NCBI RefSeq assembly: GCF_009831575.1
Contig: NZ_WUUT01000002.1
Coordinates: 124,001 to 188,000, forward strand
Origin: Halovenus carboxidivorans
Lineage (GTDB): Archaea > Halobacteriota > Halobacteria > Halobacteriales > Haloarculaceae
Length of the DNA stretch: 64,000 nucleotides
Direction of reading: 5' to 3'
Part shown: piece after piece, positions 23,677 to 27,835 of the stretch
How positions within the stretch are numbered: the first letter of the stretch is position 1
Layout of the letters: the number at the start of each line of letters is the position of its first letter
Notes under the pieces: model-generated
What the model saw: only the letters and a program-made list of their open reading frames with translations
What the model was told of the DNA's origin: nothing
The model's database searches: none
Translations under genes and position numbers: made by a program

Positions 23677-24084
23677 ATGAGCGGTGACGGCGAAGTCGAT
23701 ACCTCTCGAACGGTCGTCCAGACGTACGTTCCGGCCTACCAGCGTGATCTGTGGGACGACCACGCTGATCGGCTGGACATGTCACGCAGCGAGTTCGTCA
23801 AGACGATGGTCCAGGCCGGGCGACGAGAGATCGGAGACGATCCGGATCTACTCCCGGACGACGACCTGGCGGCGGAGTCGACCGAAGGAGAGGGCAAATC
23901 TCTCTCGGCGGAGATCACGTCGCTTCTCGACGACGAGGACGCACTGTCGTGGGACGAACTGCTGGCGGCGCTCACAGACGATATCGAGGCCCGACTGGAC
24001 GACACGCTCCAGGAGCTACAGGACAGGAATCAGGTGCGGTACAGCGGTCGTGAAGATGGCTACGTGCTGGTGGACGAATCATGA
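23677..24084 (+). CDS. DUF5805 protein, integrase partner
   Basis: 135 residues from ATG 23677. The N-terminal half contains TVVQTYVPAYQRDLWDDHADRLDMSRSEFVKTMVQAGRRE, which has the beta-strand then helix-turn-helix look of a ribbon-helix-helix DNA-binding domain. An acidic middle and a C-terminal winged-helix-like segment (LSWDELLAAL then QDRNQVRYSGREDGYVLVDE) follow. This matches the DUF5805 family that precedes tyrosine recombinases in haloarchaeal genomes. Its stop overlaps the integrase start by four bases (ATGA), so the two are translationally coupled. A role as an excision/integration accessory factor or repressor is inferred. The longer upstream open frame is not acidic and was not used. 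Confidence 0.8.
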   Translation: MSGDGEVDTSRTVVQTYVPAYQRDLWDDHADRLDMSRSEFVKTMVQAGRREIGDDPDLLPDDDLAAESTEGEGKSLSAEITSLLDDEDALSWDELLAALTDDIEARLDDTLQELQDRNQVRYSGREDGYVLVDES

Positions 24085-25091
24085 GTGAACTCGACCGTTC
24101 GGCCCAGAGCCACCTCGAGTACTTCATCGAAGATATCGCATACCAGGGGAAGACGGAACGGACGCAGGAGGCCTACGAGCGCGTGTTAGCGGATTTCGAG
24201 GCGTATCTCGACTCGCGGGGGTTGAGTGTCGAGGAGGCAAATCACAGAGACTGTATGGCGTATATCCATCAGCTCAGAGGAGATGTCGGCGAGAGCACGG
24301 TCGCCACCTACGCCTCCTACCTGAACCGGTTTTACGACTACATGGTTCGCGTCGCCGAGTTCGACGACAACCCGATGTCCGTCGTCGTCGAAGAGATGGA
24401 CGAACAGATCAACACTGACCCCGCACGCCGGGATATCTCGGTGCCTGCCATGCGGGGGTTCGTCGCGGAACTCTCCCATCCGCTGGAGCGTGCAGTGATC
24501 GTCACGCTTCTGAAAACGGGGATGCGGGCCGGTGAACTCTGTAATCTCGATCTACGGGATCTCTCGCTCGCGGACCGAGACGGCGAGCACAGACCCCGTC
24601 TCGACGGCCGGCCGAACTCGATATTCGTCGACGACACGCCCGCGGCAGGGTCCGTCTACAACGGCGAGCGGCGGACGGCCTCGAACAAGCGCAAGCGGGC
24701 GACGACACTCCCCGTCGACGGGGAACTCGCAGATGTGCTCGATACGTGGCTCCGGATCCGGCCCGACGCGACAACCGACGCTGATCCGCTGTTCGTCTCG
24801 ACGAGCGATAGCTGGGGACGGCGGCTGACTCCCGATATGGTCCATCACATGGTCGAACGCCGCGCACGGGAGCACGGCTGGTATCACGACGACGGCGGGC
24901 CGGAGGAAAACGTCACACCCCACTACTTCAGACACTTTTTCACCACACATCTCCGGGATCGAACGGGTGACCGCGGCGTGGTCAAGTACCTGCGCGGCGA
25001 TGTCGCAACCGACGTGATCGATACGTACACCCACGACTGGGGCGACCGCATCCGGACGGTATATCAGGACAATATCTACTCGCTACTGTAA
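24081..25091 (+). CDS. Tyrosine recombinase / site-specific integrase
   Basis: 336 residues. The N-terminal SAM-like core-binding domain spans about 10-105. The catalytic domain shows Arg149 in KTGMRAGELCNL, Lys203 or Lys205 in SNKRKRATTL, His281-x2-Arg284 in HYFRHFF, and Tyr316 in VIDTYTHDW. The usual Leu-Gly-His box before the Tyr reads LRGD, so its His/Trp position is not conserved. The protein cuts and rejoins DNA at a specific site through a 3'-phosphotyrosine. It overlaps the DUF5805 gene by four bases. It may belong to an integrated element or serve a resident chromosomal role; no flanking att repeat or tRNA is visible within 2 kb. Confidence 0.9.
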   Translation: MSELDRSAQSHLEYFIEDIAYQGKTERTQEAYERVLADFEAYLDSRGLSVEEANHRDCMAYIHQLRGDVGESTVATYASYLNRFYDYMVRVAEFDDNPMSVVVEEMDEQINTDPARRDISVPAMRGFVAELSHPLERAVIVTLLKTGMRAGELCNLDLRDLSLADRDGEHRPRLDGRPNSIFVDDTPAAGSVYNGERRTASNKRKRATTLPVDGELADVLDTWLRIRPDATTDADPLFVSTSDSWGRRLTPDMVHHMVERRAREHGWYHDDGGPEENVTPHYFRHFFTTHLRDRTGDRGVVKYLRGDVATDVIDTYTHDWGDRIRTVYQDNIYSLL

Positions 25092-25104: not shown

Positions 25105-27543
25105 CTACTCTTCGACGACGATCGTCCCGACCATGCCGGCGGCCTCGTGAGGCACGCAGAAGTAGTTGTGCTCGCCCGGAGTATCGAAGGTTCTCACGTA
25201 GGACTGCCCGGACTGGACGGCACCGACTCCGTTCTCCCAGCCCTCACGAGCGGCGCTCTCGCTGTCGAAATCGCCCGACGCCCAGTACTCCGCGTCGCTC
25301 GGGATCGCCCCCTCGTAGGCGACGACGTTGTGCGGTTCGCCCGCCGCGTGCCGCCAGGCGACGGTGTCGCCCTGCCGGACCGTGAGTTCCTCGGGATCGA
25401 ACGCGACCGCCCGCATGTCGACGACGTGATCTGCGTCGTCTGGCACGCCCTCGACGACGTTCGGGCCCCCTTCGAGTTCTGGTTCTGACTCCTCCTCGCC
25501 CCCGCTACTCTCGGGATTTGCGGGAGCCTTGTCGGGTGCACCCGCGACCGCGAACTGCGCCTGGAGGCACGCCTCGGCGTAGGCCCTGACGTGTTCACTC
25601 GGGTTCTCGCCGCTTTCGAGCGCGCTGATGTACGATTCGAGTGCGCTCTCGTAGCTCTCGTAGCTTTCCTGGTCTGCCTCCTCGACGAGGTCATGTACGC
25701 GGGCCTCCTCGAAGTGTGCGAAGACGTCGCTGACGATCGATCCAGCGCCACCCGTCGCGCCGGCGCTTGCCGAAACGACCGCGTAGATCGCGTCGACACC
25801 GAGGCCGACCGCGGACTCCGCGCCGCTCGGGCCGGCTTCGATCTGTCCCTCGAAGTTCTCGTAGAGTCGGTGATCCGCCTCTTCGAGGGCTTCGTGGAAG
25901 CCGGCCGCACCGCTCTCGAAGTAGCCCAGAGCGTCGGTCATGACCGTCGACGCGCGCTCTGATTCACCCAGGGCTTCGAGAGCGGCGCCGTCCAGCGCGC
26001 GGCCGATGAGGTATCCGGCCTCTGCACCGCTTGCTGCTGCCGTCGAGGCGAGTTGCCGTTCGAAGGTTGCGAGCGTCTCGTGGACGCCAGCGACGTGTGA
26101 GGCCACTGCTTCGTCGTCTCCGTTTTCGATCGCCGTCGACAGCCCTTCGAGGTGGTCGTGCTCGAATGTGTCATAGAGCCCTTCGTCGGTTTCTTCGAGA
26201 GTTTCGTGGAAGCCGCCGGCGTCGGCCTCGAAGTCCGCGAAGACGTTCTGAACGAGTTCGAGCGCCCGATCCCGGCGCCCGAGGCGGTACTGTTCGTGGG
26301 CGTCAGCGACGCGAATCCGGGTGTAACTGGCCTCCAGCAAGGCCGACATGCTCCCCGACACGAGCGCGGCGATACCGGATCTGAGCGCCGAGTCGAGCGT
26401 CTCCAGTGCCGCCGTCGCGGCCTCGCTATCTCCGTTCTCGAAGGCCGTGACGAGATCTTCGAGCGCCCCCTCGAAGCTCTCGTAGCTCTCGTGGTCGGTT
26501 TCTTCGAGGGCGTCGTGCGCCCGAGCGGTCTCGAACCGTTCGAGGCCCGTCTGGACGGTCTCTACCGCCGCCTCTGTTGCGCCGTTTTCGGACAGAAGCA
26601 CCGCATCGCGGGCTCTGGCCCGGTACTCGTTCAGCGAAGCGGCGTGAGCGAACGCTTGGGTGGGACCACCCGCTGCTGCAGCCGCCGCGCCGTCCCAGCC
26701 CCGAGCCTGCAGAGCAGCCATGTGAATCGCGCCCGCGACAGACTCGTCTTCTGCCGCGTACAGGGCCTGCAGTGCTGCCCCGAAAGCGTCGTGTGCCGCC
26801 TGCGTCGCGGCCTCCCGGTCTTCGCTCTCAGCGGCACTCGACGCCTGACGAGCCGCGCTGACGAAGCTATCAGCGGCCCCTCGATCGACCTCTGCGACAC
26901 CGTCGTAGAGATTTTCCTCGAACCGAGCGGCGATCTGATCGAACTCCTGGGCCGCCGCGCCGTATTCGCCGAGTGAGAGCAAGATCAAGCCGTCCTCGAC
27001 GTGAGCTCCCATGACCAGAAGCGTCAGCGACGGTAGCAGGGATTCGTCGGCGAGCGTCGCCTGTGCGGAACGGAGGTTCTCGTCCGCCGTCCGCATCGCC
27101 TCGTGGGCGGCCTCTAGCTCCTCGTTTGCCACCGTTTCCCTGAGTCGTCCGAGAGCCTCCTCGAAGCCGTGGTAACTCGACTCCTCGGTCTGTTCGAGGG
27201 TTTCGTGGGCGTTGTTCTCTCCGGACGCGTTCTCGAACCGCTCGAAAATATCGGAGGCGACCGTCGCGGCGGAGTCGTACGCGCCCGCATGACCCAGGAT
27301 CACCGGATCGCGTAGTCGTGTCCGGATCGCGTTCCACTCCGACACAACGCCGACGTCGGCCGCCGCATAGGACGGTTCTGCCCCGGTCTGCTCGGATTCG
27401 CTATCCGACTGCTCGGTGGTCGATTCCGATGGCTGTTCCGACTGATTGTCCCCGTCGTCGGAGCTGCCCGAACAGCCTGCGAGTGATACGCCTGCGAGCG
27501 CGCTCCCCGATGCGAGGAGCAGTTGCCGTCTCGTCTGCTGCAT
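25105..27543 (-). CDS. Tat-exported lipoprotein: DUF5059-type repeats plus C-terminal cupredoxin domain
   Basis: 812 residues. The N-terminus has a Tat signal (TRRQLLL) and lipobox LAGC with Cys24, then a Ser/Glu/Gln-rich linker, so the protein is anchored outside the cell. About five imperfect helical repeats follow (roughly 65-680). Each is built round F-E-x-x-x-x-H-[ED]-x-LE[EQ]-x-[DE]-x3-Y and a following FE-x2-L segment. The last 110 residues are a plastocyanin/halocyanin fold with a type-1 copper site: EPHNVV supplies His, CVPHEAAGM supplies Cys, His and Met. Two DtxR-type palindromes flank its TATA box, pointing to metal-controlled expression. The repeats resemble DUF5059 and the helical domains of iron-uptake lipoproteins. 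Metal acquisition or electron transfer is inferred. Confidence 0.88.
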   Translation of the reverse strand: MQQTRRQLLLASGSALAGVSLAGCSGSSDDGDNQSEQPSESTTEQSDSESEQTGAEPSYAAADVGVVSEWNAIRTRLRDPVILGHAGAYDSAATVASDIFERFENASGENNAHETLEQTEESSYHGFEEALGRLRETVANEELEAAHEAMRTADENLRSAQATLADESLLPSLTLLVMGAHVEDGLILLSLGEYGAAAQEFDQIAARFEENLYDGVAEVDRGAADSFVSAARQASSAAESEDREAATQAAHDAFGAALQALYAAEDESVAGAIHMAALQARGWDGAAAAAAGGPTQAFAHAASLNEYRARARDAVLLSENGATEAAVETVQTGLERFETARAHDALEETDHESYESFEGALEDLVTAFENGDSEAATAALETLDSALRSGIAALVSGSMSALLEASYTRIRVADAHEQYRLGRRDRALELVQNVFADFEADAGGFHETLEETDEGLYDTFEHDHLEGLSTAIENGDDEAVASHVAGVHETLATFERQLASTAAASGAEAGYLIGRALDGAALEALGESERASTVMTDALGYFESGAAGFHEALEEADHRLYENFEGQIEAGPSGAESAVGLGVDAIYAVVSASAGATGGAGSIVSDVFAHFEEARVHDLVEEADQESYESYESALESYISALESGENPSEHVRAYAEACLQAQFAVAGAPDKAPANPESSGGEEESEPELEGGPNVVEGVPDDADHVVDMRAVAFDPEELTVRQGDTVAWRHAAGEPHNVVAYEGAIPSDAEYWASGDFDSESAAREGWENGVGAVQSGQSYVRTFDTPGEHNYFCVPHEAAGMVGTIVVEE

Positions 27544-27545
27544 GT

Positions 27546-27561
27546 TTTAGGCTTGCCTAAA
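27546..27561. promoter_or_regulatory. DtxR-type operator, proximal copy
   Basis: TTTAGGC-TT-GCCTAAA is a perfect 16-base palindrome starting three bases from the ATG of the copper-lipoprotein gene. It has the TTAGG...CCTAA shape bound by DtxR/IdeR-family metal-dependent repressors. Its position over the transcription start would block initiation. Confidence 0.75.
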
Positions 27562-27563
27562 TA

Positions 27564-27572
27564 GAATATATG
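27564..27572 (-). promoter_or_regulatory. TATA box of the copper-lipoprotein gene
   Basis: Minus-strand CATATATTC lies 21-29 bases upstream of the ATG at 27543, between the two DtxR-type palindromes. The transcript would be leaderless or nearly so. Confidence 0.6.
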
Positions 27573-27582
27573 TGTTTCGAAG

Positions 27583-27598
27583 TTTAGGCGGCCCTAAA
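27583..27598. promoter_or_regulatory. DtxR-type operator, distal copy
   Basis: TTTAGG-CGGC-CCTAAA is a palindrome with 6-base half-sites, the same half-sites as the proximal copy, 37 bases further upstream. It lies beyond the TATA box at the position where the B-recognition element or an upstream regulator would bind. Confidence 0.7.
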
Positions 27599-27835
27599 AC
27601 CGGCAAAACTCTCTGTCCTCCGGCGGTCCGGTATCGAGTGACCCTGTTCCCGGGGCGAGTAGTAGCAACTGTACCGTAATCGAACCGTTGGGACTGTCGG
27701 ATAACTACTTCGTAAACCACATAACGATATATCGAATCGCCAGCGTCGAGTGAATCGTTGGGTGTTACTCGAACTGTTCGAGGGGTACAGGTGCCAGGGC
27801 CGTTGTGGGCCAGTAATGCATCCGCCGGGAGTCGA

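Follow-up and report, generated by a model that had tools for sequence, protein, structure and literature searches.

A haloarchaeal copper lipoprotein with helical units remotely related to the outer domain of FTR1 permeases is preceded by a double DtxR-type operator

Results

The window analyzed here is a 64,000-nucleotide stretch of Halovenus carboxidivorans DNA. On its minus strand, positions 25105..27543 encode an 812-residue Tat lipoprotein that was identified by its open reading frame, Pfam matches, alignment and structure model as the orthologue of HVO_1228/hcpE and hcpG. From the N to the C terminus, the protein consists of a signal peptide with a lipobox, six helical units (~600 residues), an acidic linker and a type-1 copper domain. 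The signal peptide and its lipobox LAGC (aa 1-24, 27472..27543, minus strand) end at the predicted lipidated residue, Cys24. As a preliminary description of the locus had proposed, the sequence MQQTRRQ...SLAGCS has the features of a haloarchaeal Tat lipoprotein, namely a twin-arginine motif and then a lipobox of the form [LVI][AST][GA]C; residues R5, R6, A22, G23 and C24 are invariant in an alignment of 24 orthologues. Residues 66-674 belong to the DUF5059 family (PF16502; E 3.9e-182, 607.7 bits against a cut-off of 25), with positions 2-619 of the 619 in the Pfam model covered. The 3.25-Mb Halovenus carboxidivorans genome has one copy of this family, and orthologues were found in about a quarter of the haloarchaeal genomes sampled (41 of 145). 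The protein of the window is a diverged family member, with about 44-50% identity to the aligned orthologues. The gene family is already known (HVO_1228/hcpE, HFX_RS06015/hcpG), and the combination of DUF5059 and Copper-bind domains, which had been thought new as a reductase joined to a binder, is not new but annotated in many haloarchaea.

Upstream of the lipoprotein gene, 290 bp are intergenic. Downstream, a XerC/D-like integrase gene is convergent with it and ends 14 bp away; window positions 23700-25091 hold this gene and a small DNA-binding-like open reading frame, end-to-end with the lipoprotein gene, which suggests the boundary of a mobile segment. An operon with a transporter was ruled out, as the neighbours are not conserved among 20 orthologue regions. 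A Pfam scan of the lipoprotein for the FTR1 membrane domain (PF03239) gave no match.

The C-terminal part of the protein (aa 708-812, 25108..25422, minus strand) is a type-1 copper domain with the plastocyanin fold. It matches Copper-bind (PF00127) over residues 708-811 with an E value of 2.3e-18 (66.9 bits against a cut-off of 21.2), and its model aligns with the plastocyanin fold of 2plt with a Z of 14.4 and an rmsd of 1.1; in a fold search with the whole-protein model, the list was filled by plastocyanins. The copper set read from the sequence beforehand as EPHN, CVPH and AGM proved to correspond to H738, C796 with H799, and M804, all invariant in 24/24 orthologues. Two further models scored below their cut-offs: halocyanin TIGR03102 (38.8 bits against an NCBIfam cut-off of 93.8) and plastocyanin TIGR02656 (69.1 bits against 87.85). 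The domain is like halocyanins and plastocyanins in its fold and its H/C/H/M ligands, but unlike them it is borne on a 600-residue helical array. A short natural form of 506 residues, present in two haloarchaeal genomes (L065 in G085 and L066 in G077), retains the operator, three helical units and the copper domain, with the axial Met of the copper site changed to His or Gln.

The helical array was divided into units using the alignment of 24 orthologues together with an AlphaFold2 model (mean pLDDT 85.7). Five repeats had been claimed previously; we found six, all on the minus strand. Unit 1, delimited by alignment and model, spans aa 61-165 (27049..27363) and carries E104, H113, E117, Y124 and E128. 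Unit 2 (aa 167-264, 26752..27045) is degenerate in Halovenus carboxidivorans, with Y213, A217, A224 and V228 replacing H, E, Y and E, most of which are retained in other orthologues. The same set recurs in unit 3 (aa 296-394, 26362..26658; E338, H343, E347, Y354, E358), unit 4 (aa 398-498, 26050..26352; E439, H446, E450, Y457, E461), unit 5 (aa 501-580, 25804..26043; E543, H550, E554, Y561, E565) and unit 6 (aa 582-667, 25543..25800; E612, H617, E621, Y628, E632); unit 4 additionally has the invariant residues H464 and H483. The helices of a unit are A (about 23 residues), B (17), C (10), D (20) and E (22). The E/H/E/Y/E set comprises a Glu that ends helix B, a His of helix C with a Glu four positions later, and the Tyr and Glu of a YxxFE motif. 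A shared core had been noticed earlier and does exist, although the form then given, F-x-H-E-x-LE[EQ], is better written as FE-x(3-8)-H[ED]xxE-x6-YxxFE. Across the 24 orthologues, 72 of the 607 residues of the helical region are invariant; in units 1, 3, 4, 5 and 6 the same is true of 24 of the 25 E/H/E/Y/E positions, and the last is kept in 23 of 24 sequences. The sixth unit and the invariant E/H/E/Y/E set are additions of the present analysis.

These conservation data bear on a reading in which the protein is an ordinary halocyanin, with the non-binding repeats as a structural spacer to raise its copper domain across the S-layer. A lipid anchor followed by a long helical array and a C-terminal electron carrier would suit such a spacer, as would a unit number that varies and falls to three in the 506-residue form. 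Against this, the E/H/E/Y/E residues are kept invariant in five of six units despite about 45-50% identity, and the iron-type regulation described below would be left unexplained. We therefore consider a plain spacer very unlikely.

Each unit is predicted to be a four-helix bundle. When units 3-5 were modelled alone, as the preliminary description had recommended for a single repeat, they were confidently predicted as helical bundles (pLDDT 94.4). Two units that were tested each align as a single up-down four-helix bundle of the kind found in PsbQ, with an rmsd of 2.3-2.6 over about 97-99 residues to PsbQ-like bundles, and these matches are generic. A fold search with units 3-5 returned generic four-helix bundles only (PsbQ, vinculin, SMBP), with a best Z of 8.6, which is below the meaningful level for helical bundles. 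Imelysin/EfeO and FTR1 outer domains were absent among the matches listed for this search, an absence that excludes nothing. The R3-R5 profile, run against solved structures, gave matches at chance level only; neither profile nor fold searches found a significantly similar solved structure for the helical part. Weak Pfam matches to TarH, DUF5667 and SMBP were dismissed as helical-bundle noise.

Profile comparison related the units to a known family. A six-unit profile (144 sequences) was aligned with nine outer units of FTR1 permeases, drawn from cytochrome c/FTR1 proteins and FetM with its three tandem copies, and hhalign returned a probability of 89%, a P of 2.2e-6 and a score of 37.4, with an alignment spanning 87 of 105 columns. 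In controls, the maximum score of 100 column shuffles was 15.4 and that of the reversed alignment 10.2, while the best decoys reached 20.6 among 284 unrelated haloarchaeal proteins and 20.3 among 52 unrelated profiles. Units 1, 3 and 4 were also matched singly to the FTR1 outer units (P 8e-7, 5e-7 and 1.3e-5). When the FTR1 set was split into disjoint subsets, cytochrome c/FTR1 proteins only (31.1) and FetM plus Priestia (25.8), both beat every decoy with the register unchanged; taken one at a time, the Priestia FTR1 units did not match significantly. Of the five conserved positions, two are Glu in DUF5059 and FTR1 alike, and FTR1 has Glu in place of the His. The profile homology runs along the whole unit, as expected of a member of the FTR1 N-terminal extracytoplasmic unit. 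These comparisons, made with few FTR1 sequences, indicate a remote homology between the DUF5059 units and the extracytoplasmic domain that long bacterial FTR1 permeases carry. The earlier idea of a copper carrier joined to a ligand-binding repeat array gains structural support, with an array that is remotely homologous to an iron permease domain. We know of no Pfam name for the FTR1 outer unit.

The same evidence can be set against a reading in which the ligand of the repeats is a different one (copper, a siderophore, heme or a further protein) and the lipoprotein serves a copper or electron-transfer economy when iron is limiting, for example by replacing an iron-containing carrier. Copper carriers are known to take the place of iron proteins in iron-limited cells. 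The copper-binding protein SMBP (3u8v) is a weak fold match, with a probability of 0.97 but an E value of 2.0, and one family member weakly matches the SMBP family PF16785. A simple carrier, however, would have no need of 600 bundle residues, the units have a remote relative in an iron permease, and an invariant Glu/His/Tyr set without Cys or Met suits hard iron better than Cu+. Overall, we judge a different ligand unlikely, and we infer from the conserved residues that the E/H/E/Y/E clusters probably bind iron.

We then consider the promoter. Two exact 16-bp palindromes of the form TTTAGG-N4-CCTAAA lie 37 bp apart and in phase upstream of the gene, just where two DtxR-type operators had been recognized earlier. 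The proximal operator, TTTAGGCTTGCCTAAA (27546..27561, unstranded), is separated from the start codon by 2 bp, and the distal operator, TTTAGGCGGCCCTAAA (27583..27598, unstranded), lies just upstream of a TATA-like stretch (ATATAT; 27565..27572, minus strand) that was read from the sequence in the AT-rich segment between the two. Haloarchaeal transcripts are usually leaderless, and the operators would therefore bracket the TATA box; flanking of this element is a classic repressor position. At fewer than three mismatches, the pattern TTTAGGN4CCTAAA occurs in the window only at these two operators. From base composition, ~0.0008 exact copies would be expected in 64 kb and 0.04 in the genome, whereas ten were found genome-wide against none for the reversed pattern; with the palindrome trimmed by one base per end, the genome has 14 copies against one for the reversed control. 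The proximal site was found in all 74 distinct orthologue promoters with at most two mismatches (none in 49, one in 24 and two in 1), and the distal site in 68 of 74, 33-37 bp further upstream and mostly with one mismatch. Both sites were present in 21 of 3700 control windows from the same loci, a background that is overstated because these windows partly overlap the real promoters.

Elsewhere in the genome, exact sites precede a gene for an extracellular solute-binding protein of the ferric-type ABC class and its permease (L012), one gene for a Peripla_BP_2 binding protein in each of L014 and L016 and, also in L016, an oxidoreductase-FecCD-ABC operon. The Peripla_BP_2 gene of L014 has the same double site in the same 37-bp register (C2:52967 and 53004). 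The lipoprotein promoter thus shares a conserved TTAGG/CCTAA palindrome with iron-uptake genes, as in a DtxR iron regulon. Five matches to DtxR-type repressors in this genome exceed the cut-off. Another exact site precedes a frame-disrupted gene for a DtxR-family helix-turn-helix protein (L013:6202-6640; G000:C1:709201-709640). Its place directly after the operator suggests autoregulation, although in the assembly the gene is either broken or wrongly sequenced. Separately, the exact operators at L012:6905, L012:13894 and L015:6083 precede glycosyltransferase-like genes or lie beside an aminopeptidase/sensor-kinase pair, genes that have no evident link to iron.

Published work on Haloferax bears on this assignment. 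In Haloferax mediterranei, genes resembling those above, for an FAD-dependent oxidoreductase, an iron ABC permease, an ATPase and binding proteins, are reported as the iron-uptake set, with SirR as its presumed regulator (PMC11218638). An endA knock-down study in Haloferax volcanii places HVO_1228 among the ten most up-regulated genes (log2 4.2), with iucA, iucB, iucD and ferric binding proteins rising alongside it (PMC7714728). Conversely, a study of a cas1/fen1 double mutant reports HVO_1228 at -2.92 and iucA at -2.43, with a ferric binding protein also down (PMC9051519). In the accessible text of neither study is HVO_1228 interpreted as an iron gene (PMC7714728, PMC9051519). Halocyanin goes unmentioned in the main text of an iron-starvation proteome of Haloferax, and HVO_1228 was not found among the proteins that its accessible part lists as changed at least 10-fold (PMC11349517). 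Across genomes, IucA/IucC co-occurs with the lipoprotein in 18 cases against 10.7 expected (Fisher P 0.003, phylogeny ignored); the link to siderophore synthesis is weak because this P ignores phylogeny and the Halovenus carboxidivorans genome itself has no IucA/IucC. Taken together, the operators conserved in 74 promoters, their presence at iron ABC genes and the co-regulation with siderophore genes in two published transcriptomes strongly support the control of the gene by a DtxR-family iron-responsive repressor, as first suggested from the two palindromes.

Discussion

On balance, we lean towards the view that the protein is an iron-starvation surface lipoprotein whose FTR1-type bundles would bind iron, whose copper site would accept electrons and which would feed the co-regulated ABC importers. 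We predict that in iron-replete cells an Fe2+-loaded DtxR-family repressor occupies both palindromes flanking the TATA box and keeps the gene off, and that at low iron the gene is de-repressed together with the ferric and siderophore ABC importers. In each intact bundle, of which there would be five to six per protein, the E/H/E/Y/E residues would form a putative iron site. The plastocyanin-type copper site could then act as a one-electron acceptor that converts captured Fe2+ to Fe3+, which might be handed to the co-regulated Fe3+ or siderophore binding proteins. Such a hand-over is suggested because no FTR1 permease was found in the haloarchaea sampled: the permease is absent from the 59 haloarchaeal genomes searched (Halovenus carboxidivorans and 58 others), and among the matches listed for 295 genomes of the phylum, none of the FTR1 proteins belongs to the order that includes Halovenus carboxidivorans. 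It is possible, and we put it forward tentatively, that the system represents FTR1-type, oxidase-dependent iron capture working without an FTR1 permease, in which six iron-site bundles and a copper ferroxidase or acceptor, united in one lipid-anchored chain, would pass Fe3+ to ABC importers.

The copper site might instead work as a reductase, supplying electrons to Fe3+ or an Fe3+-siderophore held by the repeats and so releasing Fe2+ for uptake. Siderophore-bound Fe3+ can generally not be reduced by type-1 copper, whose potentials are too high for this, and the co-regulated importers are of ferric or siderophore types, without a ferrous permease. FetP, the partner of the repeat-bearing FetM, has been credited with both Fe2+ binding and Fe3+ reduction (PMC7285068), and halocyanins donate electrons in haloarchaea (PMC11218638); in contrast, ferrous oxidase activity has been proposed or measured for the cupredoxin partners of FTR1-type systems (PMC11966278). 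Since type-1 potentials are high and the co-regulated importers ferric, we infer that a ferroxidase is the likelier direction and give the reductase a low probability. Thus, of the combined reductase and binder envisaged in the preliminary description, the putative binder array has structural support and the reductase is the less likely half.

Several known systems resemble the proposed ferroxidase lipoprotein in part. In long FTR1 permeases (FetM, cytochrome c/FTR1 and Priestia proteins), the outer unit aligns with that of DUF5059 in a single register, across about 80-87 columns that include the helix B Glu, a Glu replacing the His, and the YxxFE Glu. Like the DUF5059 array, it can be tandem, with three copies in a FetM-type permease (L142, 718-2604) and two in the Priestia protein (L175, 808-2274). 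Unlike these permeases, the lipoprotein has no permease membrane domain, has six units where they have one to three, and carries a copper domain where FTR1 systems use either cytochrome c or FetP as a separate partner. EfeO is similar in that an extracytoplasmic cupredoxin is fused to an iron-related, all-helical domain in an iron-regulated protein; however, its domain order (cupredoxin, then M75/imelysin) is reversed, imelysins have GxHxxE where the lipoprotein has HxxxE, and its partner is an FTR1 permease, which is absent in the sampled haloarchaea. The A1 or A3 profile aligned with a single E. coli EfeO by hhalign gave P values of 0.25-0.54, no support for an EfeO/imelysin homology, and M75 was not among the Pfam matches of the lipoprotein and its family members. 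With respect to regulation, TTTAGG-N4-CCTAAA at iron-uptake genes of the same genome is shared with the DtxR/SirR/Idr regulons, whereas two sites bracketing the TATA box in a class-wide 33-37 bp register are not.

The class-wide double operator and the relation to the FTR1 outer domain are additions of the present analysis. In the literature searched, we found no earlier interpretation of the lipoprotein gene as an iron-uptake gene and no assignment of an iron-oxidising or iron-binding surface protein in the haloarchaeal class. The link between the repeats and the outer domain of FTR1/FetM provides a testable function for DUF5059 and for the outer domain alike, and suggests that the latter could serve as an independent iron-binding module, present in several copies and linked to a copper site. 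If this is true, the repeat would be a shared iron-handling domain of FetM, long FTR1 permeases and DUF5059 proteins.
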